From an uncultured Bacteroidales bacterium (GTDB lineage: Bacteria > Bacteroidota > Bacteroidia > Bacteroidales > Muribaculaceae), in assembly GCA_902792435.1 (NCBI GenBank), contig CADAZN010000032.1:1-42599 (forward strand): a stretch of 42,599 nucleotides of DNA. Direction: 5' to 3'. Positions 6,591 to 38,752 of this stretch are shown piece after piece. The position numbers and the translations under genes are program-made. A model generated the notes under the pieces. That model was not told where the DNA came from. It searched no databases and was given only the letters and a program-made list of their open reading frames with translations. Position 1 is the stretch's first letter, and every line of letters begins with the position of its first letter.

Positions 6591-6655
6591 CGATTATTTG
6601 TTTAAATTCGCAACCAAAACAACCAATTACATTGCAAACCATAAATCATACAATT

Positions 6656-9214
6656 ATGAAAAAGATTCTACTATTGCTTGTGGCTCTGTTTGCCACTTCC
6701 ACCGTTTGGGCTGCGGACTTCATCACCGACGTGATGGTGATTGGTGGCTCGAAAAGCGAGGTGAACAGCCTTAAGACCACTTACACCAATCAAGGCTGGA
6801 CGGTCATCGACCAGGACCTGAATGCGGGTTGCGGCTCAGGCAGCGACTACATCTACATGCTCTACAAGACGGGTAGCAACACCAGCCAAGATGCCGGTGC
6901 GTTTATCACCGACTTCTATATCAGCACCGAAAGCGGCACAGTCCCCGACAATGTCATCTACAATGGCCGTACCTATACCATTGTGCCTTGCGATGGTAGC
7001 ACCTATTTCAAGAACAACAAGGGTGACCTTAACAGCCACTGCGGCTCGGGCAGCGCCTACATCCACCTCTATTACTGCAAGGATGACAATGTTAATTACA
7101 GGTCCAGCGCCGTCACTTCCATCACCTTCAACGACACCCAGAGCGGGGCAATAGGAGAGAGTGGCAGTGACACGGGCTATGACCTCAACGCCGGTTGCGG
7201 CTCGGGCAGTGCCTATATCTACATGCACGCCGCTACCGCCGCAAAGGGTTGGACCGTCAGCACAAACTCCGACAACAGCGAGTGCATCATCACGGGGTAT
7301 CAAGGCACTAAGACCAACAAGACCTCTATCACCGTACCACTCTATATTGACGGCGCGCAGGTGGCAAACTTCGATGGCCCGATATTCAGTGGGTTCACCA
7401 AACTTGAGACTCTGGCTTTCTATGACAACACCATAGTCAGCCAAATGCCGACGATGCAGGGCTGCTCCATGTTCAAGCATGTGAAAACCGGCAACACCAA
7501 CGACAAGACTCCGACTTCGATGACAAGCATCCCAGCTTCGGCCTTCGTGGGCACGGCCATCGAAAATATCACGCTCACATCGGTCACCAGTGTTGGTGCC
7601 AATGCGTTTCAGGGATGCGGCACACTGAATAGTGTGATATTTAATAAATCGGGTGTCACGATTGGTGATGGCGCGTTCTCTTTCATTGTAAAAGCAGGAG
7701 GCGCAATGTGCCAAGTCACTTATCCAGGCTCAATTGATGACTGGAACGGCATAATGGTCATGTGCTCGCCAAGCTTGGTTGTTAATGGCGGAAGCGGCAG
7801 CAACACATGGTCTTGCGGTTGGTGCGGCGGAGGTTCCTCAAGCAGCTATAACCGTCTCTCCTGGACGCTCGATGCTGCCGGGCAGCTAAAAATAGACTGC
7901 GCCGACAACAGTTGGTCAAATCATCCCACTGACCAGGTCATTGTTTACCAAAACTGGACTAAAAATCTTGTGAAATCGCTCACTTTAGAGCATGTTTACT
8001 CTTTAGGAGTGCAGGAATTCACCAATTATGCCAATCTAAAGAATGTGTATATCAACCCCACTTTGCATTCCATAGGCAATAGCGCTTTCTCAGGTTGTAA
8101 TACTTTGACAGATATTTGGTTCGACGGCACACAGTCGCAGTGGGCCGCTGTGGAGAAGGGGAGCAGCTGGAAGCCCAGTACCACCAAGGAGCACTGGCGC
8201 TGCACCGTGACTTTCAATGCCAACGGACATGGCACCGATCCTGCTTCTCAGACCCTTTGGAGCGACTATGACAAGGCAACAGAACCTACTCCACCAACTG
8301 CAACTTTATACGTCTTCCGCGGCTGGTTCACCGAAGCAGAATGCATCAACCAGTGGGACTTCAACACGGTAGTTCCTGGCGATATGACACTTTATGCCAA
8401 ATGGGACGCACAATACACCTTCGATAGCGAGACTGGCGAATTGAAACTCCTCTGTGGCGAGTTCAACAAGGACAACAAGTGGGGCAGCGATGTACCACCT
8501 ATGGAAGTAAAGAGCGTCACCGCCACCAATGAAGTAAGCTTCACCGGCAACTGCTGGCAGCTGTTCTACGATTTCTATTATTGCGAGAGCATGGATCTTA
8601 GCAGGGTAAACACCAGCAATGCTACCAATACGGGCTTTATGTTCCAGTATTGCGCGAACCTTACCTCGCTTGACCTTTCGGGTTGGAACACTTCCCGTGT
8701 CACTGAAATGCGCGGCATGTTCTACAACTGCGGAAGTCTTTCCACGCTCGACATCTCGGACTTTAGCACAGCCAACGTTAAAGACATGAGATATATGTTC
8801 TCTTACTGCTATAACTTGAATACTATCTATGTTGGCCCAGAGTGGAGCACCGTGTTCGTCTCCCAATCAGATGAAATGTTCAAAAGCTGTGGATCACTGG
8901 TAGGTGGCATGGGCACCACCTTCGACGAGAACCACATTGACAAGGAGTATGCCCGTATCGATGGCGGCGCCGACTGCCCCGGCTATTTCACCGACAAGAA
9001 TGCCATGGTGGTGGTGCCTGGCGACGTGGATGGCGACGGATATGTGACAACGGTTGATATCACCGCCATCTACAACTACCTGCTCAGCGGCGACGAGACC
9101 TACATCTCCACCAGCGACGTGGACGGCGACGGCTTCATCACCACAACAGATATCACAGTGATTTATAATATACTGTTAGGAAGCAAAGGAGGAGTCTCTT
9201 CAGAAGACAATTAA
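6656..9214 (+). CDS. BspA-like surface protein with beta-prism-like repeats, InlB repeat and dockerin-like tail
   Basis: This 852-residue secreted protein starts at the ATG giving MKKILLLLVALFATSTVWA, a signal peptide; an earlier in-frame ATG at 6632 would spoil it. In order it shows: three N-terminal repeats built on DLN-G-CGSGS-YIY (residues ~55-205), which resemble the bacterial form of MABP-type beta-prism repeats (my inference); a BspA-type LRR_5 segment (~210-360); a further LRR_5 piece; a Listeria-Bacteroides/InlB repeat ending in GDMTLYAKW (~520-590); DUF285/BspA repeats such as MFQYCANLTSLDLSGWNTS (~635-740); and two EF-hand-like dockerin motifs, DVDGDGYVTTVDI and DVDGDGFITTTDI (~785-840). 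This is a typical adhesin or scaffold-anchored surface protein. The last three codons and the stop lie within repeat copy B, so the C-terminus has been shaped by the repeat. Confidence 0.88.
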   Translation: MKKILLLLVALFATSTVWAADFITDVMVIGGSKSEVNSLKTTYTNQGWTVIDQDLNAGCGSGSDYIYMLYKTGSNTSQDAGAFITDFYISTESGTVPDNVIYNGRTYTIVPCDGSTYFKNNKGDLNSHCGSGSAYIHLYYCKDDNVNYRSSAVTSITFNDTQSGAIGESGSDTGYDLNAGCGSGSAYIYMHAATAAKGWTVSTNSDNSECIITGYQGTKTNKTSITVPLYIDGAQVANFDGPIFSGFTKLETLAFYDNTIVSQMPTMQGCSMFKHVKTGNTNDKTPTSMTSIPASAFVGTAIENITLTSVTSVGANAFQGCGTLNSVIFNKSGVTIGDGAFSFIVKAGGAMCQVTYPGSIDDWNGIMVMCSPSLVVNGGSGSNTWSCGWCGGGSSSSYNRLSWTLDAAGQLKIDCADNSWSNHPTDQVIVYQNWTKNLVKSLTLEHVYSLGVQEFTNYANLKNVYINPTLHSIGNSAFSGCNTLTDIWFDGTQSQWAAVEKGSSWKPSTTKEHWRCTVTFNANGHGTDPASQTLWSDYDKATEPTPPTATLYVFRGWFTEAECINQWDFNTVVPGDMTLYAKWDAQYTFDSETGELKLLCGEFNKDNKWGSDVPPMEVKSVTATNEVSFTGNCWQLFYDFYYCESMDLSRVNTSNATNTGFMFQYCANLTSLDLSGWNTSRVTEMRGMFYNCGSLSTLDISDFSTANVKDMRYMFSYCYNLNTIYVGPEWSTVFVSQSDEMFKSCGSLVGGMGTTFDENHIDKEYARIDGGADCPGYFTDKNAMVVVPGDVDGDGYVTTVDITAIYNYLLSGDETYISTSDVDGDGFITTTDITVIYNILLGSKGGVSSEDN

Positions 9215-9660: not shown

Positions 9661-12600
9661 TCATTTGATTATTGCTTTCACCGAACTAGTAGTGCCGTCG
9701 GTGTAGCGGGTGACGATGATGTTCATGCCGCTGAATGGACGGTCACTAACTTGTCCAGCCACGTTAACATACTGGCGGCTCTCGACAGTCTTGCCGTTCT
9801 CGACAATAATGCCTTCGATGCCTGTGGCGTTGTCAACGTTAATTGTCAGTTTCAAATATTGGGTCTTGCCCTTCTGGGTAGCGCCAATAATCATCGCACG
9901 ACCGCTGTTATTGACCTTGGCATCGATGTTGAGCATGCCATCGGCACTAACTGTGATGTCGATGTCCTCGCTCTCGATGTCGAGCAAAGCAGGAACACCA
10001 GCGGCAGGAGTAACCTCGCCCAGGTCTTCTAGGATATAGGTCACTGTTGAGCCATCCTCGTCGAGAGTGAAGAACTCACCGAGGTCAAGGCTCCAGTTGC
10101 CAACCTTGTAGGTGCGAGACTCCTCGGCAACAAGGTCGCGCTCGCAGTTGAAGTCGTCGAGAGCGAAGTAGGCTGCAGTATTCAAACCATACTGACCCTT
10201 ATCACTGCCATCAAGCAGGAAGCGCACCTTAGCAACCTTGCCCAGAGGACGGAGGTCCATCCACTGCCAGGTGTCAAGGATGTAGTGGTCGAGAGCGTTG
10301 TCGCTGCGGTAGTCGGCAAGATAGAAGTCGGTGCGAGCGGTCTCCTCGTCGTCGGCATCAAATCCCACTGCGGTGAGCTTGAACCACGAACCCTGAGAGA
10401 ATGCGGTTGCAAAGCCGTCGCCCACTGCCATGCCGTTGTAAGCATAAGCATTGTTGCTCACATACACACCCTTCAGGTTGTCTCCGTCGGCGCTGTTGGT
10501 AATCTCGATGAATTGACCCTCGGGGAAGGCAATTGAGAAGTTGCTCGAGCCGTTGTGGCCCTCGCCCACTACGCTGTGCCACTGGTCATTGAGAGAAGCA
10601 TAGTTGGTTGCAGTCTCGTTACTCAGTGAGTAGCCATACCAGTAGTTATAGCTTGGCATTGCACCGTTGTTGAAGTAGTAAGAACCGCTGTAGAAGCCGT
10701 CCTCAACCATCGATGCTGTGGTTGGGTCATAAGCCCAGTGGCTTTCCTCGTCAAGGTAGTTGTCGTCCATCGATGCTGTCACTGCCTCGCCCAGCACGCG
10801 CACGCCAGTCTTGGCGGTTACGGTCTGTCCGTCGGCACTGGTCACCGTGAGACGATAGCCATAAGAATATTCAGGAGTAACATTGAGAGTTGCCTCATTG
10901 CCCACTACCTCGTTCATCTGGTCACGCCACTCATAGGTGTAAGGCTCGTCGCCACCAGCCACTACAGGAGTGATGGTAGCGGTCTCGCCAGCATTGATTG
11001 TGGCAGCCACCTTGTTGAGAGTAGCAGTCAATGGCTCGATGTGACGCAGAGTGGTGAACTCCTCGGTCTCGACCACGTCGCTCTCCTCGCCAAGTGGGCT
11101 CACTACCATGAGGTAAGCCTTGTAGGTAGTGTTTGGAGTAAGGTCGGTGAGGTTAGTGTTCACCTCGGTATCGGCAGTGATGTCGACGCCATCGGTCTCC
11201 TTGAGTTGGTCGGCAGTCACGCTCTTGAGCATTGGTGCTCCAGAGGGTTCGTCGCCAACAGTCTCAACCATGTAATAGAGCTTGCCGCCCACGGTCCACT
11301 TGCTCTTAACTGTTGCAGTGGTCTCGGCGATATCGTTAACGGTTGGGTAACCCTCGACAATCTCAGGCTTCTCGACTACAACCTCGGCAAACTCGTAGGC
11401 ACCGATGGTTGGAGTCTCGGCATTGCGCTGCTTGCCGTCGGCATCGGTGGTGATGAAGTCGACAGGCACACCGGCGTTAAGGTTGCCAGCGCTGAGCAGA
11501 TGGTTATCGATGTCGCTCATGAACTCGGCCTGCTCGGCAATGTTGCCTTGCTTGTTGTCGAGAGCATTGAGGTCGTCGATAGTTGCTGCATGGTTCTCGA
11601 AGAGAGTTCCAGATGTAGCATAAACAGCGTTGTTGGTCATAATCAACGCCTTGGCATCGTCGGCACTGTTGATGTAGGCAAGTTTGCCGTTAGTGGTGAA
11701 GTTTTGCAGCAAGTTGTTCTGCATCTTCATTCCAGTGTAACGGTTGCCGCTGCCGGCAGTGTAGTAAACATAGCCGTTGCTACCGCTCACGCGCACTGTG
11801 TTGTTGTAGAACGCGATGTTCTTAGAGTCGGCAGTCACTTGCAGACCAGCGACACTGCTGCTTGAGGCGTTGGTGATAACAATACTGTTGTTGTAAACAA
11901 GGATAGGATTATCAGCGCTTTGGCCCTCACAACCCTGGCGCATGTAGATACCCTGTGAGTAGTAGGTGTTAGTGTGGATAATCACGTTGTTGCGAACAAT
12001 CATACTACCAGAGTTGCGGTAGATGTCCATCGAGTTGTAGCCAGTAGCGGTTGATGTGCTCTGGCTGATGTTGTTGTTCTCGATAAAGGCGTTGGCAACG
12101 TCGGTGATGTAGATACCCTTGCTGCGAGGCTCAGATATCTTGTTATTGGTAATTACATAATCGAGTGCATCGGGCACAGCCACTGGACCAGGACCAGTGA
12201 GGCCCATTGCGATGTAGCCACCATAGAATTCATTGCCATCGATGGTGAGGTAGTCGTTGTTCATGCCACCCTTGTCTTCCATAGTACCCACATTCTCGGT
12301 CTTGAACAAGTTCATGCCACTGTAACCGCTAGTCACGAGCTCAGCCTTGAGGTAAGAGTCCTTTAGGGTGAAGTGGCGGCTCTGGTTGTAGATATGGATG
12401 GCGTAAGGATAAGACTGGCTCTGTGGGATGAAACTCATGCTCTCGAAGCTTACCCAAGGAGTGGTCTCGACAAATACCATTCCCTTCTTGAGCTCGCCAT
12501 AGGCTGGAGCACTGTAACCGCCACCGGTGATAATCACCTTGCTGCGGTCACCACTCTTGCTTACGAAGGTAACGGTGTTTTGCTCGCTTGTGCCGCGCAC

Positions 12601-15600
12601 CTTGCTGATGACGATGTTCTCGGCATAGCTGCCGTCCTCAACCTCGAAGCGTACAGCGCCCTCCACGCCATTGGCCATGGCAGCGGTAGCAGCGGCAAAG
12701 GTTGGGAAGTCGGCCTCGGCACTTGAGCCAATCACGTAGGTGCCCTTGATACCAGTCACCACCTGGCGCTCGGCGTTGGTACCAGTTACCTCAATCAGGT
12801 TGTCGCCTTGAGCAACCTCAAGCACTTGCGCGTCGAGTTTGTTGCCAGTTTCGGCGTCGGCAGCCACATCGTAAGTGAGCCACAGATAGTAGTCACCGTT
12901 GTCGCTGATTTCGATTGGAGTGTCGAGAGTCAACACGTTCTCGCCATCGGCAACTGTGGTGAGCGATGCCACTGGATTAGCGTCGCTGAAGTTGGCAGTG
13001 TGGTTGGTGTAATAGAGCTTAGCAGCAGTGATGTCGCTCACGCTGGTTGTTCCAGCATTTGTGAACTTCACGCTGTTGATAGTGATAGGCTCCTTGTCGC
13101 CGCTCACGGTGACCTTGAGCTGCTGCATCAGCGCGTCGCTCATGCTGCGGTTCACGTCTTCGCTAGTGGCGATAGCCTCAACGCTCTCGATAACAAATGG
13201 GGTCTTCTCGTGCAGTGTCACTGCGATAGCCCATCCGTCGAGGGTTGTAGCTGTAGAGTTGCCCTTATAGTAAACGGTGAGAGAGCCATCCTCGGCCTTG
13301 CTCACAAGGTTTGCGGGACCAGTGGTGGTCGAGTACTTGTTGAGCAGGTTGTCGTCGTTGACCTCTTGACCGTTGTAAACATACATGTTGCCCGAGCCAA
13401 TCGAGAATGTGCCCTGAGTATTGAGCTCAATGGCGCTGTTCTCACGGCCGGGGATGAAGGTAACGGTGCCAGTTAAGCCCTTGCTTACCTTGCCGTCGGG
13501 TCCTCCATCGTCGTAGAACATAAGAGGATTGTTGACAACAATCACGTTGTTGCCTTCCTCAAGCAGATAGATGTACTTAACCACGCGCACGCCTTCGGGA
13601 TCACCATTCTCAACAGTGGTGACAGTGCCGGCGGCATCGGTGATTGAGAGGAGCTTGGCGTCGACTTGAGCCTCGGCCTCAGCGTCGGCTTTTACGTCAA
13701 CGGTTACCCAGAAGTAGTTCTTGCCCTCGGTGAGCTCACGCTCGCCAGCGACAGAAACCTCGCTCTGTGCAGGATTCTCAACGTTGCCAAACTCTACTGC
13801 GGTGGCAAAGTCGTTGGTGTTGTTGTAGAATACGCTCACTTTGTTAACCGCCGCCTCGCTACCCTTGAGGTCGAGAGCAATGTTGTTGATAGTAGCGGTG
13901 CTGAGAGTGCCCTCGGTCTCGACTACGAAGTCGATGAGCTGGGCATTGCTGGCGCCTGGAGCGAGCACGTCGGTGCTAGTTTGGTTAACAGTCACACCGC
14001 TAACTTCCATGTTGTGGTTCTGGAAAGGCTGCACAGTGGCGGTCCAACCAGTGCCTGCATAGTAGCTGCTAGTGGTCTTAGGGTTGAAACGGATGGTGAG
14101 TGAACCATCGGCGCTCTGCGAGCGGAGCACAGTGCCAGGACCAGTTGAGCTCTGGCTTGCGTCTTGCAAGCTCCACAACAGGTTGGCGTTGTTTAGCTCG
14201 GTACCGCTATAAATCTCATAAACGGCTTTAGTGCCGTAGCTTGAGTTTGAGTAGTATACATCGAATGCCGAGAAGTCGATTTGTGCCACGGTGCCTGCAT
14301 CGGCAGGAGTGAAGGTGACGATGTAGTCGGCATCTACGGTCTCATACTTGCCATTGTAACCCTCAGTGTTGGTGAAGGTCCAAGGGCCGCTGATAACGTG
14401 GCTGTGCGAACCTTGAGTGGCACGGCACACGTTGTTGACGGTGCGAGTGACAGTAACAGTTGCCTCGGGAGCCTGGGTTGTCTCGCCCACGAGCACATTG
14501 TCGAGCGACAGAGTGATTTGCTCACCGTTCTGCGCATTGTCGTTCAGGTCGAGAACAACAGCCACATAGTTGTGACCCTCGATAAGCTCCTTCTCGCCAG
14601 TGATGGCGATGCTGGTGCCAGTGACATCCACCTCTCCAAATGGATTGGTAGTGGTGAACTCGTTCTTTTTACCTAAATAATAAGCGCGTGCGCGCGCGAT
14701 GTTCTTAGCATCGGCGGCAGTGAGGTTGATACCCTTGAGGCTCAGTGGATTTGCTGTATTGTCGGTTTGCACGTCGATGACGAGCATCTGGGCGTTGGTG
14801 TCGCCTGCGCTAACGGTAGCAGTCGACGCTGCCTCGCCTGTAACACCGGCAAGTGTCATATCGCCTGGCAGGAACTGGCTCACCAGTGCCTCCCAACCGC
14901 TCTTGGGATAACCAGCGGTGCTCTTGAGGTAGACGGTGATAGAACCATCGTCGGCAGTCGATTTCACGATTTCGGGCTCGTCGAGCAAGGTGGTGATGAG
15001 GTTTGCCTCGTTCACCTCACGTCCGTTATAGAACTTAAACACGTCGTTGTAGCCCACGCTAGAAGTGTTGAACAGGTCGAGCTTCGAGAAGTCAATCTTG
15101 ATGGCGTTGCCCTCGGTGGCTGGAACAAAGGTAATTTGTCCCTCAAAACCTTGGGTGATGTTGCCATCCTTGCCGCCGTCGTCATAGAAGTTGTAGGGCA
15201 CGTCGCCCACAGTGATGACTTGTGGAGTGGTGGAGATGAGCGCGATAGCAGGTTTAGCGACTGCTATGGGGGTGCCTGCAGTGAACGGAGACACACCGTC
15301 GGGCATGCCAGTGGTGGCAATCTTGGTAATCTCAATTGCAGCCTTTGCGCCAGGAACAGCCTCGCCCAGGAATTCACCAGCAATCGAGAACTTGTTGGAG
15401 CCCTCGGCTAGTGGTTGGCTCAGGGTAAAGGTGTAGCCGTCGCCATCGGCAGCCACTGTGGCATCGAGTGCTGTAGCGCCCTTGAACGAAGGCTGCGAGC
15501 CTGCATATAGGCGCAACTGCGTTGGGTCGACAGCGTCCTCGTTGGTCGTAGCCTTGAACGAGATGCCAGTCACATTGTCGGCATTCATCACGCCGGTGGT

Positions 15601-16239
15601 GGTAACCTCGGCGGTAGCGAAGTTCACGGCCTCGGTGGCAGTGGTGGCAGCATCCACGTCCTCGTAGTTGCTCGAAGCACCAGTCACGGTCATGTCTTCG
15701 AGGGTGATACACCTAACTGTACCCTTCCAGCCGTCACAGGTTTCGGCATAACGGTAAAGATAACCTACTGAGATGATGCCCGAAGCATCGGTAGCAGTGT
15801 AGGTCTTGTTTTCATAGGTACCGTCGAGCTTCTCGAGCACATTACCCGTGGGCAGTGTGGAGCTTGCGGTCACGCCACTTGTTGTTGTAGCATAGCTGAA
15901 CGAGTTGTCGGCATCTGGATCGCCAGCATACACGTTCACGTAAGCAGGCCAGCTAGCACCGTCGTTGCGCACGTCAAGCCTCTCGAAGGTAAGCTGGATT
16001 GCTTTTCCCTCGGCAGGCTTGAACACGGTGAGCGACTGCGAGTTGTTGCTGCTAGAAGACGAGATTCCCTGATAACCATTCATGTCGTAGAAGGTTATCA
16101 CCTCGTCGGCAGCAACCTCGATGGTCTGCTTGCCAAATTGCAACTGATTGACGGTGCGGTCGGCACGCGCAGGCAGTGCCATAGCCACGATAGCCATCAG
16201 TAGCACAAGGTTTTTGGAAAGTAAACTTAGTTGCTTCAT
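9661..16239 (-). CDS. Giant secreted mosaic protein with CUB-like, BNR-associated, beta-helix and DUF4465 domains
   Basis: This 2192-residue protein has a signal peptide ending near ALPARA (residue 25). Residues ~35-1160 alternate CUB-like modules (each with an F/Y-YD.GG block and a VYNG/FYNG block, near 40-180, 345-455, 615-735, 900-1010) with modules resembling the BNR neuraminidase-associated N-terminal domain (near 185-310, 460-595, 745-880, 1015-1150). A parallel beta-helix rich in N-N-I/V turns follows (~1170-1615). Then come a fibronectin III-like domain (~1625-1730), an Ig/PKD-like domain (~1735-1815), a DUF4465 domain (~1818-2033, with GVYVSNNAYAYN, DFYLADYR and AYFALDDF) and a T9SS-like tail. 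From memory, DUF4465 proteins of Bacteroidetes are linked to surface cobalamin capture (BtuH type). That fits the cobalamin riboswitch in its leader, so a role in B12 or cobamide binding at the cell surface is plausible but inferred. Confidence 0.9.
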   Translation of the reverse strand: MKQLSLLSKNLVLLMAIVAMALPARADRTVNQLQFGKQTIEVAADEVITFYDMNGYQGISSSSSNNSQSLTVFKPAEGKAIQLTFERLDVRNDGASWPAYVNVYAGDPDADNSFSYATTTSGVTASSTLPTGNVLEKLDGTYENKTYTATDASGIISVGYLYRYAETCDGWKGTVRCITLEDMTVTGASSNYEDVDAATTATEAVNFATAEVTTTGVMNADNVTGISFKATTNEDAVDPTQLRLYAGSQPSFKGATALDATVAADGDGYTFTLSQPLAEGSNKFSIAGEFLGEAVPGAKAAIEITKIATTGMPDGVSPFTAGTPIAVAKPAIALISTTPQVITVGDVPYNFYDDGGKDGNITQGFEGQITFVPATEGNAIKIDFSKLDLFNTSSVGYNDVFKFYNGREVNEANLITTLLDEPEIVKSTADDGSITVYLKSTAGYPKSGWEALVSQFLPGDMTLAGVTGEAASTATVSAGDTNAQMLVIDVQTDNTANPLSLKGINLTAADAKNIARARAYYLGKKNEFTTTNPFGEVDVTGTSIAITGEKELIEGHNYVAVVLDLNDNAQNGEQITLSLDNVLVGETTQAPEATVTVTRTVNNVCRATQGSHSHVISGPWTFTNTEGYNGKYETVDADYIVTFTPADAGTVAQIDFSAFDVYYSNSSYGTKAVYEIYSGTELNNANLLWSLQDASQSSTGPGTVLRSQSADGSLTIRFNPKTTSSYYAGTGWTATVQPFQNHNMEVSGVTVNQTSTDVLAPGASNAQLIDFVVETEGTLSTATINNIALDLKGSEAAVNKVSVFYNNTNDFATAVEFGNVENPAQSEVSVAGERELTEGKNYFWVTVDVKADAEAEAQVDAKLLSITDAAGTVTTVENGDPEGVRVVKYIYLLEEGNNVIVVNNPLMFYDDGGPDGKVSKGLTGTVTFIPGRENSAIELNTQGTFSIGSGNMYVYNGQEVNDDNLLNKYSTTTGPANLVSKAEDGSLTVYYKGNSTATTLDGWAIAVTLHEKTPFVIESVEAIATSEDVNRSMSDALMQQLKVTVSGDKEPITINSVKFTNAGTTSVSDITAAKLYYTNHTANFSDANPVASLTTVADGENVLTLDTPIEISDNGDYYLWLTYDVAADAETGNKLDAQVLEVAQGDNLIEVTGTNAERQVVTGIKGTYVIGSSAEADFPTFAAATAAMANGVEGAVRFEVEDGSYAENIVISKVRGTSEQNTVTFVSKSGDRSKVIITGGGYSAPAYGELKKGMVFVETTPWVSFESMSFIPQSQSYPYAIHIYNQSRHFTLKDSYLKAELVTSGYSGMNLFKTENVGTMEDKGGMNNDYLTIDGNEFYGGYIAMGLTGPGPVAVPDALDYVITNNKISEPRSKGIYITDVANAFIENNNISQSTSTATGYNSMDIYRNSGSMIVRNNVIIHTNTYYSQGIYMRQGCEGQSADNPILVYNNSIVITNASSSSVAGLQVTADSKNIAFYNNTVRVSGSNGYVYYTAGSGNRYTGMKMQNNLLQNFTTNGKLAYINSADDAKALIMTNNAVYATSGTLFENHAATIDDLNALDNKQGNIAEQAEFMSDIDNHLLSAGNLNAGVPVDFITTDADGKQRNAETPTIGAYEFAEVVVEKPEIVEGYPTVNDIAETTATVKSKWTVGGKLYYMVETVGDEPSGAPMLKSVTADQLKETDGVDITADTEVNTNLTDLTPNTTYKAYLMVVSPLGEESDVVETEEFTTLRHIEPLTATLNKVAATINAGETATITPVVAGGDEPYTYEWRDQMNEVVGNEATLNVTPEYSYGYRLTVTSADGQTVTAKTGVRVLGEAVTASMDDNYLDEESHWAYDPTTASMVEDGFYSGSYYFNNGAMPSYNYWYGYSLSNETATNYASLNDQWHSVVGEGHNGSSNFSIAFPEGQFIEITNSADGDNLKGVYVSNNAYAYNGMAVGDGFATAFSQGSWFKLTAVGFDADDEETARTDFYLADYRSDNALDHYILDTWQWMDLRPLGKVAKVRFLLDGSDKGQYGLNTAAYFALDDFNCERDLVAEESRTYKVGNWSLDLGEFFTLDEDGSTVTYILEDLGEVTPAAGVPALLDIESEDIDITVSADGMLNIDAKVNNSGRAMIIGATQKGKTQYLKLTINVDNATGIEGIIVENGKTVESRQYVNVAGQVSDRPFSGMNIIVTRYTDGTTSSVKAIIK

Positions 16240-16349
16240 AGTTAATTAATTATGTTAATAAAATCGTCATCTCACTCTACTCTCGGTGAAACGACGAAAC
16301 AACATGAAGCAAGGTGGAGTGCCATGACGGGCAGAAATCCTCCAAATCA

Positions 16350-16523
16350 GAAACAAATCAAACAAACTCAACAAATTAAAACAAATCCAACAAAGAATTA
16401 TTTTGTTGTTCTAGTTAGGCTTTGTTGTTTTTGTTTGCCCCACAGCGAGTGTGGTGCCTGCGCCAATTGTCCTTAAACAAAACACTGTCTAATGCCAAAT
16501 AATTTTGTCATTAGTTGTCTTTT
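16350..16523 (-). repeat. Dispersed palindromic repeat, copy C (divergent, inverted)
   Basis: Read on the minus strand it shows GACAACTAATGACAAAATT, a GACAGTGTTTTGTTTAAGGACAATT segment, GCAGGCACCACACTCGC and the AACAAAAACAACAAAGCC arm. A degraded hairpin and GTTTGATTTGTT follow. It aligns with copies A and B at roughly 80 percent by eye but lacks the second terminal module. It lies between the cobalamin riboswitch and the giant gene and is inverted relative to copy B at the other end of that gene. Confidence 0.8.
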
Positions 16524-16589
16524 AAAAACAGCGTAAACCTGCAATGTGTTCCGGCCCTAATTCCACGAGAGCGCGAAAAATTTTAACGA

Positions 16590-16797
16590 TAACGAGGCAG
16601 GTCTTCTGGCTCATTCCCATCGCTCGCCTTGGGGCCTTCCCACAAGTTTAAACTTGCAGTGACCGAAAATTCAGAGTAATCAGTGAGTTCGGCAAGCGAC
16701 ATGTAATGGGGAAAATACAGCAGCGGGTTCTGCCCAGGATTCTCACCTGTGTTCCCTTTTCAGCCACCAGTGGAGCGGGTGCTCGTGGTGGCCACCA
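16590..16797 (-). promoter_or_regulatory. Cobalamin riboswitch
   Basis: On the minus strand the conserved elements occur in order: GGGAACACAGGTGAGAATCC (16756 to 16737), a GGGCAGAACCCGCTGCTGTA segment, a GTCACTG element, TGGGAAGGC, and the B12 box GAGCCAGAAGACCTGCC (16612 to 16596). This is the diagnostic set of the B12 aptamer. It lies about 350 nt upstream of the giant gene. A GCAGGT sequence 50-60 nt downstream (16542 to 16537) could pair with ACCTGC of the B12 box, a possible expression-platform pairing. Cobalamin riboswitches normally repress their downstream gene when cobalamin is abundant. Confidence 0.95.
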
Positions 16798-16810
16798 CAT
16801 TATCACGATG

Positions 16811-16842
16811 CAAAGTTAGGCATTATTTCTCACACCACCAAA
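16811..16842 (-). promoter_or_regulatory. Promoter of the cobalamin riboswitch and giant gene transcript
   Basis: On the minus strand TTTG (16842 to 16839), exactly 20 bp, then TAACTTTG (16818 to 16811). The start site falls immediately before the riboswitch. Confidence 0.8.
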
Positions 16843-17827: not shown

Positions 17828-19804
17828 ATGCAAGACGAAAAAGATTTACAGCAACAACAGGAGCAGATTGAGCTTCCCGAAAACGCGTTTCGTCCGTTGA
17901 AGGAAGGCGAGAAGTATGTTCCTATCTTGCGCCCCGAGAAAAACTATCCCGAGGTGACTCCCTATTCGGTTTCGATGGGTCTTATCATGGCGGTGATTTT
18001 CAGTGCCGCAGCAGCCTATCTGGGACTGAAAGTGGGACAAGTGTTTGAGGCGGCGATTCCCATCGCCATTATTGCAGCAGGTATTGCTGGCGTGACCAAA
18101 CGTAAGAACTCGCTCGGCGAGAACGTTATCATCCAGTCGATTGGTGCTGCCAGCGGTATTGTAGTGGCTGGTGCAATCTTCACATTGCCAGCGCTCTACA
18201 TCCTGCAACAGAAGTATCCCGAGATGACCGTCAACTTCCTTGAGGTGTTCCTCAGTTCGTTGCTTGGTGGTGTTCTGGGTATTTTGTTCTTCATCCCATT
18301 CCGCAAGTACTTCGTAAAGGAGAAACACGGAGACTTCCCCTTCCCCGAGGCAACAGCAACAACTCAGGTGCTTGTTCAGGGCCAAAAGGGTGGCGAGCAG
18401 GCTAAACCGCTGCTTATCGCCGGTCTTGTGGGTGGACTCTATGACTTCTTGATGAGCTCATTCGGCTGGTGGAAAGAGGTTATCTCGACAACCGCCATTC
18501 CCGCTATGCAGAACTTTGCCGACCAAACCAAGTATGTTTTCAAGGTCAACGTTAGTGCAGCGACCCTGGGTCTTGGTTTCATCATCGGTCTTAAGTACAG
18601 CTTCATCATCTTTGCCGGTAGTGCTTTCATCTGGTGGGTTGTAGTACCATTGTTTGCGGCTGTAAGCCCCGACATGGCAGCTATGGCTACCGACGATATC
18701 TTCAAGGACTATGCCCGCTCGATTGGTATTGGTGGTATCGCAATGAGTGGTATCATTGGCATCATCAAGTCGTGGGGCGTGATTAAGAACGCCGTGGGCC
18801 TTGCTGGCAAGTCGTTCAAAAAAGGTGGAACTGAGGAGAAAGAAGAGCGCACTCAACGCGACATCCCAATGAAGTCGCTCGTGTTTGCACTTTGCGCAGC
18901 ATTGGTTATCACCTTCGTATTCTTCTGGATTGGCGTGATTCACAACCTGCCACAGGCAATCGTGGCATTTATCGTTGTTGTGGTTATCGCATTCCTGTTC
19001 ACTACCGTTGCAGCCAACGCTATCGCTATCGTTGGTAGCAACCCCGTGAGCGGTATGACACTGATGACACTGATTATTGCTTCGGGTATCTTCGTTGCCG
19101 TTGGCCTTAATGGCTGGCAAGGTATTGTTGCCTCGATGATTATTGGTGGTGTGGTTTGTACAGCACTCTCGATGGCTGGTGGCATGGTGACCGACATGAA
19201 GATTGGTTACTGGATTGGTACCACTCCTGCCAAGCAGCAGACTTGGAAGATGCTTGGCACCGTCCTCTCGGCAGCTACCGTGGGCGGTGTGATGATTATC
19301 TTGAACAAGACCTATGGCTTCTATGAGGGCGCCGTTCCTGGCGAAGCTCCTCTTGTAGCACCTCAGGCCAACGCTATGGCAGCCGTTATCGATCCATTGA
19401 TGACTGGTGGCGAGACACCCTGGACATTCTACATTTGTGGTGCTATCCTCGCTTGCCTGCTCAACTGGCTCAAGGTTCCCGCATTGCCATTCTCGCTGGG
19501 TATGTTCATCCCATTCCAGTTGAACACTCCACTGTTGATTGGTGGTATCATCAGCTGGTTTGTAAGCACCCGCAGCAAGGACGAGAAACTCAACAAAGCC
19601 CGCATGGACAAGGGCACGCTCATCGCCAGCGGTTTCATTGCCGGTGGAGCACTGATGGGAGTTGTGAGTGCCGCGATGAAGTTTGGTGGATTTAAGTATG
19701 AGAGTCCGCTTAGCGATGGTTTCTCAAGCACTCTCGGCTTGATAATGTATATTGCACTTATTATTTACTTCGCAATAAGCTGTCTCAAGGCCAAGAAAGA
19801 TTAA
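17828..19804 (+). CDS. OPT family oligopeptide/metal-chelate transporter
   Basis: This 658-residue integral membrane protein has about 14-16 hydrophobic segments. It opens with a short soluble N-terminus and then PYSVSMGLIMAVIFSAAAAYLGLKVG, the typical first helix of the OPT family. Other family features are KRKNSLGENVIIQSIGAASG, FPFPEATATTQVL and NPVSGMTLMTLII. OPT proteins are proton-coupled symporters of peptides or metal-chelating compounds in the inner membrane. The bacterial substrates are mostly unproven. Length is normal and nothing is disrupted. It lies between the VYGPP lipoprotein (39 bp upstream) and a membrane-anchored protein (21 bp downstream), consistent with an operon. Confidence 0.93.
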   Translation: MQDEKDLQQQQEQIELPENAFRPLKEGEKYVPILRPEKNYPEVTPYSVSMGLIMAVIFSAAAAYLGLKVGQVFEAAIPIAIIAAGIAGVTKRKNSLGENVIIQSIGAASGIVVAGAIFTLPALYILQQKYPEMTVNFLEVFLSSLLGGVLGILFFIPFRKYFVKEKHGDFPFPEATATTQVLVQGQKGGEQAKPLLIAGLVGGLYDFLMSSFGWWKEVISTTAIPAMQNFADQTKYVFKVNVSAATLGLGFIIGLKYSFIIFAGSAFIWWVVVPLFAAVSPDMAAMATDDIFKDYARSIGIGGIAMSGIIGIIKSWGVIKNAVGLAGKSFKKGGTEEKEERTQRDIPMKSLVFALCAALVITFVFFWIGVIHNLPQAIVAFIVVVVIAFLFTTVAANAIAIVGSNPVSGMTLMTLIIASGIFVAVGLNGWQGIVASMIIGGVVCTALSMAGGMVTDMKIGYWIGTTPAKQQTWKMLGTVLSAATVGGVMIILNKTYGFYEGAVPGEAPLVAPQANAMAAVIDPLMTGGETPWTFYICGAILACLLNWLKVPALPFSLGMFIPFQLNTPLLIGGIISWFVSTRSKDEKLNKARMDKGTLIASGFIAGGALMGVVSAAMKFGGFKYESPLSDGFSSTLGLIMYIALIIYFAISCLKAKKD

Positions 19805-20467: not shown

Positions 20468-20863
20468 TCACTTTTTATTTGCGCCGCCCTTTTTGGTTTT
20501 TATGACCACAACGCCATTGGCGCCTCTAATACCATAAATAGAGGTTTCTGATGAGTTCTTCAGCACTTGAATCGACTCTATATCATAAGGGTTTAACATG
20601 CTGAGGGGACCATCATAGGGCATGCCATCAACGATATACAGGGGCTCGGTGCTCGCATTCAGCGAACTAATGCCACGAATGAGCAATGATGGAGACGAAC
20701 CTGGCATGCCAGACGAATTAACAAGCACGCCAGCTCTCCCTTCAAGTGCCTGGGTAATGTTCGTAATTGGATAATCACTCTTATCAATTGAAGATTCCAT
20801 CCATTTCGAGCTAGAGCAACCAGCCAAACAAACAATCGTCAAAAGCAAAGCAAAATACTTCAT
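20468..20863 (-). CDS. Freestanding TonB-receptor plug domain lipoprotein
   Basis: This 131-residue protein has a lipoprotein signal (lipobox LAGC, Cys at residue 16). The rest is essentially one SusC-type plug domain: [41 protein letters not shown], and [36 protein letters not shown]. In a SusC receptor this domain sits inside a beta-barrel of about 700 residues, but here there is no barrel, and the frame ends naturally after KKGGANKK. It is therefore either a genuine standalone plug lipoprotein or the relic of a receptor. The intact frame, lipobox and place at the end of the PP2C operon (22 bp gap) favour a functional gene. Confidence 0.85.
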
Positions 20864-36188: not shown

Positions 36189-36277
36189 CATATTTTTTGG
36201 TTTTTTGACGGAATTTTTTGAAACATTTGGCACCAGTTTTGCGTCTAATGAACAGAAAAAGCAAAAAAATAGAGAAA

Positions 36278-38752
36278 ATGAAGAAATTTATCGCAATCCT
36301 ATTGATGACCGTTTGCACCCTGACTGCCATGGCGCAGCAATACAGCGTGCAATGCCAAGTGAACGACAGCGAGGGAGAAGGCATCCCGTTCGCCACGGTT
36401 TACATCTACAACAGCAACGACACAACAACAGTGATTACTAGCGGCGTGAGTGATGCCTTTGGTAAGGTTGACCACAAGATCAACAAGGCCGGAAGCTACA
36501 TGATGCGCCTGCAATTTGTGGGCATGACACCACAAGACCGCAACTTCGAGGTCAGTGCCTCGGCTCCAGTGGCACAGCTGGGCACCATCGTGCTATCGAC
36601 CCAGTCGACGATGCTCAAGGAAGTGGTGGTAGCTACTCAGCGCCAACTCGTGAAGACCGAGATTGACCGTCTCACCTACGATGTTCAGGCCGATGCCGAC
36701 AGCAAGACCAGCAACGTGCTCGACATGCTCAAGAAGGTGCCAATGGTCACCGTTGATGGGCAGGACGAGATTCGTGTGAAAGGTACCACCTCATTCAAGG
36801 TTTACCGCAATGGTCATCCCGACCCCGCATTGGCAAGCATGAACATGAAGGAAATCCTCAAGGTGATTCCCGCGTCGATGATTAAAAAGATAGAGGTTAT
36901 TACCGACCCAGGCGCAAAATATGATGCCGAGGGCACAAGCGCTATCCTCAACATCGTCATGGCCGATGGCAACGCTGGAACCATGAATGGTGTGACAGGA
37001 ACAATAGGTGCCGGTGTTGACAACACAGGTAGCCTCAATGGCAATGCCAACATTACCGCCCAGATGGGAAAAGTGGTGACAGCTATCAACTATGGCTACC
37101 AAAACAGGAATCGACATGGCAGCCATAACCTCTCGGAGAGTGAACACACCTATACCAGCTCAGGTAACAAATTATATAGCACTAACGATTCGCGAGCCAG
37201 CGTGAACGTGCACTACGGTGACATCAGCGCTAGCTGGGAACCCGACACCACCAACCTGGTTTCGCTCTCGTTTGGCGGCTTCTACTACGACTACCGTGGT
37301 GATGGTGTGAACAACGCTCGCATGACCGACCGTGACGGCAACATCCTGTATAAATACACTACCAATGGTCATTCTCCCAAGGGTGACTTCTATGACCTGC
37401 ACGGTCGCCTCGACTATCAGCACAAGACTCGTCATCCTGGCGAGATGCTCACACTGAGCTACATGCTCTCGACCAACCACAATGGCAGCAAGACCATCTC
37501 AACCTTCAGCGACATGATCAACTGTCCATTCCCCTACACCGGACAAACCAACGACACTAAGGAGAACTTCGCTGAGCACACTTTCCAGTTTGACTGGACA
37601 AGGCCTTTTGCCAAGTATCACAAGTTTGAGACTGGTGTGAAGTACATCAACCGTATGAACAAGAGTGAGGCGACCTTTGAGTTCATGGGAATGCCCGAGA
37701 TGAACAACATCACCCTGTTCAACCACCGCACCCATGTGGCAGCAGCCTATGTGAGCCACACCTTCAGCAAGGGCAACTGGACTACTCGTGAGGGATTGCG
37801 CTATGAGTATAGCCGCTTGAATGCCGAGTTCCCCGATGCTCCTCAAAACAACTACCACCGCAACCTGAACGACCTGGTGCCCGACCTCAGCATTGAGTAT
37901 AAGTTTGACTGGGCCCACAGCCTCAAGCTCAACTATAGCACCAGCATTCATCGCCCGGGTATCAGCTACCTCAATCCAGCCATCGAGGAGAGCCCCACTT
38001 CACGCTCCTATGGTAATCCTAACTTGAGCAGTTCGCGCACCCATGGCATCACCTTGACCTATATGCAGATAGGTGCAAAACTGACATTCAGCTTGAGCCC
38101 AAGCATTTCGTTCAGCACCAACGAGATTACAGGAGTGCAATTTACCGAAGGCGACATCTTCGTCTCAACTTATGCTAACACCCTCAAGACTCGCAGCATA
38201 GGCCTCAATGGATTCATGCAGTGGACTATAGGCCCCAAGACCAGTTTTGTGTTCAACGGCAATGTGTCGCACAACCGCTACAAGAGCGATGAACTTGGAC
38301 TTGAGAACAAGCGCTGGAACTCATTCTGCTATGGCCAACTCAACCAGCAACTCCCTTGGAAACTGCGACTCAGCGTCAGTGCCGGAGAATGGAGCGGAGG
38401 AATCAACGGTCTCTATGGACACTACACTGGTAACTGGTTCTACAACCTGGGCTTGCAACGCTCATTCCTCAAAGAGGACCGCTTGACAGTGCGCCTGAGT
38501 GCCGACCGTTTCTTCCACGGCAAGTACGCCTCGATGAAGAGCTACACCAATCAGGGTGACTACACCGGTTGGAACAAGAACAGCTTCATCATGCGTGGCT
38601 TTAAAATCAGCATCAGCTACCGCTTCGGTTCGCTCAAGGCACGCGTTAAGCAAACCGACAAGACCATCGAGAACGACGACCTCGTGGGTGGCAGCAAGCA
38701 AGGCGGAGGCCAAGGCGGACAACAAGGCGGACAAGGACAAATGGGAAACTGA
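36278..38752 (+). CDS. TonB-dependent receptor, outer-membrane beta-barrel family (OMP_b-brl_3)
   Basis: The protein has 824 residues when started at MKKFIAILLMTVCTLTAMAQ, a signal peptide (the earlier ATGs at 36218 and 36248 give no signal peptide at the N-terminus). Domains in order: a carboxypeptidase-regulatory-like beta sandwich (~22-105, GEGIPFATVYIYNSND), a plug (~120-230, with SNVLDMLKKVPMVTVDG and GAKYDAEGTSAILNIV) and a large barrel (~240-800) of the OMP_b-brl_3 type. The end is Gly/Gln-rich (GGGQGGQQGGQG). No SusD partner is nearby, so it is not a classic SusC/D system. Its substrate is unknown. The region upstream has CAGTTTTG (36234-36241) as a poor -7 match. Confidence 0.9.
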   Translation: MKKFIAILLMTVCTLTAMAQQYSVQCQVNDSEGEGIPFATVYIYNSNDTTTVITSGVSDAFGKVDHKINKAGSYMMRLQFVGMTPQDRNFEVSASAPVAQLGTIVLSTQSTMLKEVVVATQRQLVKTEIDRLTYDVQADADSKTSNVLDMLKKVPMVTVDGQDEIRVKGTTSFKVYRNGHPDPALASMNMKEILKVIPASMIKKIEVITDPGAKYDAEGTSAILNIVMADGNAGTMNGVTGTIGAGVDNTGSLNGNANITAQMGKVVTAINYGYQNRNRHGSHNLSESEHTYTSSGNKLYSTNDSRASVNVHYGDISASWEPDTTNLVSLSFGGFYYDYRGDGVNNARMTDRDGNILYKYTTNGHSPKGDFYDLHGRLDYQHKTRHPGEMLTLSYMLSTNHNGSKTISTFSDMINCPFPYTGQTNDTKENFAEHTFQFDWTRPFAKYHKFETGVKYINRMNKSEATFEFMGMPEMNNITLFNHRTHVAAAYVSHTFSKGNWTTREGLRYEYSRLNAEFPDAPQNNYHRNLNDLVPDLSIEYKFDWAHSLKLNYSTSIHRPGISYLNPAIEESPTSRSYGNPNLSSSRTHGITLTYMQIGAKLTFSLSPSISFSTNEITGVQFTEGDIFVSTYANTLKTRSIGLNGFMQWTIGPKTSFVFNGNVSHNRYKSDELGLENKRWNSFCYGQLNQQLPWKLRLSVSAGEWSGGINGLYGHYTGNWFYNLGLQRSFLKEDRLTVRLSADRFFHGKYASMKSYTNQGDYTGWNKNSFIMRGFKISISYRFGSLKARVKQTDKTIENDDLVGGSKQGGGQGGQQGGQGQMGN

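Follow-up and report, generated by a model that had tools for sequence, protein, structure and literature searches.

A cobalamin riboswitch and a conserved giant multidomain protein with a BtuJ-type DUF4465 domain in a Muribaculaceae bacterium

The cobalamin riboswitch and the giant gene

The 42,599-nt contig CADAZN010000032.1 of an uncultured Bacteroidales bacterium of the Muribaculaceae (assembly GCA_902792435.1, 2.96 Mb; contig C32 in our numbering), analysed over its full length and hereafter called the window, carries an open reading frame (ORF) at 9661-16239 on the minus strand that starts with an ATG at 16239 and encodes a protein of 2192 amino acids (aa), hereafter the giant protein. 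A covariance-model scan placed a cobalamin riboswitch aptamer (RF00174) on the same strand at 16814-16579 (90.6 bits against a cut-off of 31.5, E 2.7e-21, model positions 1-189), which is the sole Rfam match within the window at gathering cut-offs. The B12 box, GCCAGAAGACCTGCC, lies at 16610-16596 on the minus strand, and the 3' end of the aptamer is located ~340 nt upstream of the ATG. The initial annotation, made from the sequence alone, had claimed both a cobalamin aptamer before the giant gene and a promoter of its own. The former is confirmed by the scan, and the latter agrees with a promoter-like TTTG-N20-TAACTTTG of the Bacteroidota type at 16842-16811 (minus strand).

At 16265-16296 (minus strand), a terminator-like hairpin with an 11-pair stem and a T-rich run represents the proposed expression platform; it was not listed by a sigma-70 promoter and terminator scan of the leader. 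We collected 27 leaders and used 18 of them, nine without the exact B12-box pattern being dropped. The full TTTG-N-TAnnTTTG promoter-like pattern occurred in 14 of the 18 and TAnnTTTG in all 18. By criteria fixed after the hairpins had been seen, a terminator-like stem of at least eight pairs with a T-rich tail was present directly upstream of the start codon in 11/18 leaders, against 0.81 expected from shuffles (100 per leader). Hairpin pairing amounted to 96.9% across nine aligned rows, which were taken from 14 after five had been excluded because their 3' arms seemed misaligned. Judged from these sequence features, termination of transcription within the leader in the presence of cobalamin is plausible.

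The giant protein begins with a predicted signal peptide without a lipobox cysteine, judged by eye at approximately residues 1-26 (16162-16239). It continues with four CUB-like domains alternating with immunoglobulin-like (Ig-like)/BNR_assoc_N domains (residues 41-1160; 12760-16119), a right-handed beta-helix (residues 1163-1622; 11374-12753), a fibronectin type III-like domain (residues 1626-1735; 11035-11364), a PKD-like domain (residues 1738-1820; 10780-11028), a DUF4465/BtuJ-type domain (residues 1821-2034; 10138-10779) and a C-terminal domain (residues 2121-2192; 9664-9879), all on the minus strand. Pfam recognized DUF4465 (PF14717) at residues 1863-2030 (E 1.2e-51, 176 bits against a cut-off of 25) and BNR_assoc_N in three stretches (2.1e-28). 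For CUB (E 6.7e-5), the whole-protein score exceeded the cut-off with no individual stretch passing it; Beta_helix reached 25.8 bits against a cut-off of 25.9, and fn3 (E 0.77) and SprB matched weakly. In addition, structure models and domain profiles delineated the CUB/Ig string and the beta-helix, the structure model delineated the fibronectin type III-like domain, and the PKD-like domain was assigned from the structure model and from PKD matches among relatives. The mean predicted local distance difference test score (pLDDT) was 87.6 for residues 27-1160 (predicted template modelling score 0.44) and 86.1 for the AlphaFold model of residues 1130-2192. A 2192-residue protein with DUF4465 in its C-terminal part, as initially described, is thus borne out; of the further modules listed at that time, BNR_assoc_N and CUB stand, and the beta-helix, fibronectin and PKD-like modules drew sub-threshold or weak Pfam matches.

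Pfam and Foldseek together place the N-terminal string in the CUB fold. The top Foldseek match of residues 27-1160 was 3kq4_B, cubilin in its complex with intrinsic factor-cobalamin (E 6.9e-13). Taken functionally, this match would make the giant protein a bacterial counterpart of cubilin, in which the CUB string binds protein-bound cobamide, either on a host carrier or on BtuJ (the DUF4465 family) that other bacteria release on vesicles, and passes it to the BtuJ domain. Vesicle-borne BtuJ is described as delivering cobalamin in Bacteroides thetaiotaomicron (B. theta) in part of PMC12751083, and cubilin and the giant protein share a CUB string linked to B12 uptake. However, cubilin is an animal receptor, the TM-scores are low (0.11/0.25), no binding-site likeness is demonstrated, and many of the next matches are CUB proteins that do not have B12 as a ligand (neuropilins, MASPs, C1r/C1s and enteropeptidase), so cubilin probably ranks first because of how many CUB domains there are. 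In a comparison by eye, the acidic residues that mark calcium-binding CUB domains also seem absent. In view of the low TM-scores and the matches that follow, we did not accept the cubilin match as functional evidence, read it as indicating a CUB fold alone, and consider a cubilin-like role very improbable.

For export, SprA was the type IX secretion component searched, and it is encoded in the genome (SprA_N, E 1.1e-191). The sorting-domain model TIGR04183 scored over its cut-off in five of six DUF4465-bearing relatives tested, with 22.9 against 23 in the sixth; among three DUF4465-less relatives, it scored below the cut-off in two and gave no match in one. The C-terminal domain of the giant protein is a putative sorting domain, judged by position and homology, and the giant protein is probably a type IX-secreted surface protein.

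Conservation of the riboswitch-giant pairing

The pairing was examined in three sets of genomes. In the genus set, 36 of 81 genomes carry the giant gene or a fragment, and riboswitches were sought in those 36 and in G050. The genus count comprises 34 copies whose match starts at residue 72 or before. In G049 and in G044, the pieces of a broken gene were counted as a single copy, whereas fragments lacking the 5' part (the second pieces in G008, G030, G045 and G068, plus G039, G062 and G066) were not counted. A same-strand riboswitch lies directly upstream of 30/34 copies, 196-562 nt from the match. In G011 and G028 the riboswitch is 4,557 nt away, and the copies in G079 (contig C19) and G044 start 85 and 172 nt past the contig start. 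The G044 remnant (C32:173-962) consists of the beginning and the end of the giant gene alone, one match having an internal TGA. At ~3 riboswitches per 3 Mb, a same-strand riboswitch no more than 1 kb upstream would be expected for ~5 in 10,000 genes, against the 30/34 observed, and we rejected chance or a single-assembly artefact as the source of the pairing. The 34 copies are not independent because they come from related genomes; the pairing is kept in relatives and is therefore no accident of one assembly.

In the family set, 37/247 genomes from 10/30 genera matched at E up to 1e-60, and 36 were counted (G050 excluded; 11 shared with the genus count). A riboswitch precedes the gene directly on the same strand in 34/36, the others being G011, with its operon arrangement, and G258, which is cut by a contig end. 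Eight of the 34 matches start well inside the protein, and there the distance from ORF start to riboswitch is 169-361 nt in five and similar in three. In the order set, 18/393 genomes from 14/207 genera matched at E up to 1e-40; 16 were newly searched for riboswitches, and 14 of them carry the beta-helix (G623, with its 5' and 3' parts on two contigs, being counted as one gene). The riboswitch is directly upstream in 11/14, one BtuH-like gene lies between in G646 and G494, and G579 is at a contig end; short DUF4465 proteins alone, with a riboswitch upstream, occur in G328 and G428. Among the assembled 5' ends of the genus, family and order sets, no exception to an upstream riboswitch was found. 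These data indicate that the pairing of riboswitch and giant gene is conserved. Many of 46 related loci are from Muribaculaceae, Prevotellaceae or Bacteroidales, several from goat, deer or yak rumen, and they overlap with the searched genomes and are not independent of them.

The genome of the window contains three cobalamin riboswitches. Besides the one before the giant gene, a second on contig C14 leads genes for a TonB-dependent receptor, a BtuG-type protein with DUF5074, and a protein of 408 aa that ends in a dockerin and has matches to BtuGH (8blw) and BtuH (7biz). The third, on contig C7, precedes a 325-aa DUF4465 protein; DUF4465 is present twice in the genome. A BtuH-like protein with a terminal type I dockerin was observed at L066:12522-13748 (minus strand), with dockerin-bearing counterparts in L067 and L072. 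The initial annotation had stated that neither btuB nor btuG sits beside the giant gene. This is supported within the window, where DUF5074 was absent from the 20 ORFs examined with Pfam and the two with TonB plug domains (20468-20863 and 36218-38752) show short, marginal similarity to the riboswitch-led BtuB-type receptor of the genome (E 0.001 and 0.002). It does not extend to the relatives L067 and L155, which show the order riboswitch-btuB-btuG-btuH-giant. Between riboswitch and giant gene, G011 has same-strand genes for a TonB-dependent receptor, a protein with DUF5074 and a BtuH-like protein, and G028 has three same-strand ORFs of the same sizes as in G011 (685, 381 and 397 aa), the likeness of G028 being judged by size and order.

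Other arrangements link the same families. G015 has the order riboswitch-giant-riboswitch-463-aa DUF4465 protein-406-aa protein-TonB receptor-DUF5074 protein, and in G041 a separate riboswitch leads a TonB receptor, a DUF5074 protein, a BtuH-like protein and a 320-aa DUF4465 protein. Short DUF4465 proteins, each with its own riboswitch, adjoin the giant gene in G078, G026, G064 and G015 (DUF4465 tested in L069 and L070). In the window, the giant gene is adjoined by a gene at 6632-9214 (plus strand) for a leucine-rich repeat protein of the BspA type that has a List_Bact repeat and ends in a dockerin, and an OPT-family oligopeptide transporter is encoded at 17828-19804 on the plus strand, opposite to the riboswitch-led gene.

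The BtuJ-type domain and the beta-helix/CUB scaffold

DUF4465 is the BtuJ family (IPR027828), for which parts of PMC13398666 and PMC12751083 report B12 binding; the former describes eight distant or divergent DUF4465 proteins that bind B12, plus a complex (9HMU). The DUF4465 domain of the giant protein matches the chains 4jqr, 9hmu, 9qpm, 9fct, 4e9k and 9i2l by sequence, and its model matches the proteins of the same six chains by fold, with TM-scores on target of 0.74-0.77 for 9hmu, 9fct and 9qpm. The profile match together with the augmented jellyroll fold makes it a member of the DUF4465/BtuJ family, in line with the DUF4465 similarity expected earlier. Assignment to the BtuH type, as originally proposed, was ruled out: the six Protein Data Bank chains matched at E up to 1 are all DUF4465, with neither 7biz nor 8blw among them, and BtuH-like proteins are encoded by separate genes, one of which lies in the btuB-btuG operon of this genome. 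BtuH is likewise handled as a protein separate from BtuJ in the portions consulted of PMC12751083 and PMC8941943. Cobalamin contacts of BtuJ1 are formed by Tyr 97, 146 and 245, according to part of PMC12751083. Y1932 of the giant protein aligns with Y146 and Y2024 with Y245, each being kept in 36/37 aligned giants, and the corresponding two tyrosines are named as conserved in part of PMC13398666. The domain is predicted to be a BtuJ-type B12 binder.

We searched the retrieved loci with domain profiles derived from 37 giants. The beta-helix was found in 26/26 large forms and DUF4465 in 22/26, one of these with two copies; the large forms were found via similarity to the giant protein, so part of this beta-helix constancy is a selection effect. 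Variants include forms with a beta-helix and one DUF4465 (L137, L139 and L149), forms of ~3,000 aa (L135 and L136) and, behind a riboswitch, a protein that combines a beta-helix with two DUF4465 domains (L138:1145-5458, plus strand).

On this evidence we consider it likely that the giant protein is produced when B12 runs short, reaches the cell surface by type IX secretion and captures cobamides there for BtuH and BtuBG. The cobamide-capture interpretation of the initial annotation is retained as far as the conserved pairing of riboswitch and DUF4465 giant goes, and is altered in its BtuH assignment and by scaffolds that keep the riboswitch where DUF4465 is absent. Several observations weigh against this capture role. 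Four genomes of genus g22 (G174, G187, G231 and G101) keep the riboswitch and the beta-helix/CUB scaffold without DUF4465. G050 of the genus set has a short DUF4465 protein on a contig without a riboswitch, and the C-terminus of the giant protein itself has no match to the sorting-domain models TIGR04183 and PF18962. Seven of the 18 leaders lack the hairpin under criteria chosen in hindsight, and hairpin covariation is weak, with one pair changed on both sides in the nine rows, a result matched by 121/500 shuffles. Finally, BtuJ1 Y97, the AB-loop tyrosine, aligns with L1883 of the giant protein, Y1880 being three residues away. An alternative, for which the ambiguous equivalent of Y97 speaks, is that the riboswitch has no practical control over the giant gene or that its DUF4465 domain has another ligand, but the riboswitch is kept upstream across all three genome sets, the two tyrosines named as conserved are retained, and the B12 binding noted above spans eight divergent family members (both as given in part of PMC13398666). 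We therefore regard this explanation as highly unlikely.

The g22 genomes bear on a further alternative. Their scaffold proteins are 1716-1745 aa long and end shortly past the beta-helix; in 4/4 a riboswitch precedes the match by 229-292 nt, and DUF4465 was not found at E<=0.001 in the four assemblies (completeness 92-99). A second riboswitch locus in these genomes has btuB-btuG-btuH-type ORFs (families checked in G174). In a DUF4465-less genome, a second DUF5074 protein (E 3.4e-111) with a DUF6383 C-terminus was observed downstream of btu-type genes (L142:5119-6564, minus strand). The riboswitch and scaffold are kept without DUF4465, and therefore DUF4465 may not be the main function. Instead, the beta-helix and CUB/Ig scaffold could be the working part, an adhesin or glycan-active protein reaching cobamide-rich cells, particles or carriers under B12 starvation, with DUF4465 as a dispensable add-on retaining released cobamide. 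The constancy of the beta-helix points in the same direction, as do the mean column identities, which are highest in CUB2 (0.805) and CUB3 (0.782) against 0.659 in DUF4465 (beta-helix, 0.637). Moreover, Y1377, D1405 and R1434 are kept at 0.97, 0.97 and 0.95 across 62 beta-helices, and because of their spacing of 28-29 residues they may stack along one face of successive coils. However, the four DUF4465-less genomes all come from a single genus, and a single loss may account for them; the beta-helix is a big share of the giant used in the similarity search, its conserved Asn and Gly are structural, no family model names an enzyme, and short scaffold-free DUF4465 proteins with their own riboswitch exist. 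We regard a scaffold that is the working part as possible but rather doubtful. Similarly tentative is the proposal that the scaffold is a new, DUF4465-independent B12-acquisition module. Such a module would act on or cling to a carrier protein, vesicle, cell surface or glycan as a source of cobamide, the conserved Y1377-D1405-R1434 stack would be where it binds or catalyses, and it would bear zero, one or two BtuJ domains.

Proposed cobamide capture and comparison with known systems

Membership of the giant gene in the cobamide-uptake regulon of this Muribaculaceae bacterium is the best explanation of the findings. In the proposed capture pathway, scarcity of cobalamin would leave the aptamer empty and allow the polymerase to continue into the giant gene, and bound cobalamin would let the terminator hairpin directly before the ATG halt transcription. 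The giant protein would exit via Sec and the type IX system, with its C-terminal end anchoring it at the outer membrane. There, the BtuJ-type DUF4465 near this end may take cobamide into its loop pocket and pass it to BtuH and the BtuB-BtuG transporter, whose genes lie elsewhere in the genome. The CUB/Ig string and the beta-helix would extend outward, probably gripping a second partner (such as a glycan, a particle or a cobamide carrier), and this scaffold may itself serve some B12-related role.

With BtuJ1/BtuJ2 and D5EK51 (DUF4465, IPR027828; 9FCT, 9I2L and 9HMU), the giant protein shares the domain by Pfam, sequence and fold as well as two key tyrosines. The BtuJ1 and BtuJ2 genes sit in riboswitch-led B. 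theta loci (part of PMC12751083), and Bt1491, later named BtuJ1, is described as probably the most abundant protein of three B. theta loci in part of PMC10404256. Known BtuJ-type proteins are small (solved chains of 244-305 residues) and are lipoproteins in B. theta, as Bacteroidota B12 capture proteins mostly are in the consulted parts of the cited papers. In contrast, the giant protein has 2192 aa and no lipobox, and its DUF4465 is one module beside a CUB/Ig string, a beta-helix and a sorting-type C-terminus. BtuH (7BIZ) and BtuGH (8BLW) resemble the predicted role of the giant protein as surface B12-binding accessories in riboswitch-led Bacteroidota btu loci, but BtuH belongs to a family other than DUF4465. 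Large type IX-secreted Bacteroidota adhesins have a signal peptide, a long domain string and a C-terminal sorting domain like the giant protein, for which the last was detected in relatives. None of these adhesins is known to be under a B12 riboswitch.

We found no description of a riboswitch-led giant DUF4465 architecture in the openly licensed PubMed Central literature, nor anything there joining Muribaculaceae and cobamide, CUB domain and cobalamin, or beta-helix and BtuB. The riboswitch-led multidomain BtuJ-type protein is conserved; its giant architecture seems to be new, and the BtuJ domain and the riboswitch are known. The DUF4465-less members render the importance of the scaffold directly testable, and the riboswitch opens a way to find out what beta-helix/CUB surface proteins do, which otherwise lack an assigned function. 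If the proposed role is true, a riboswitch-controlled, probably type IX-secreted giant in several Bacteroidales families would mean that bacteria invest very large surface machinery in one vitamin.

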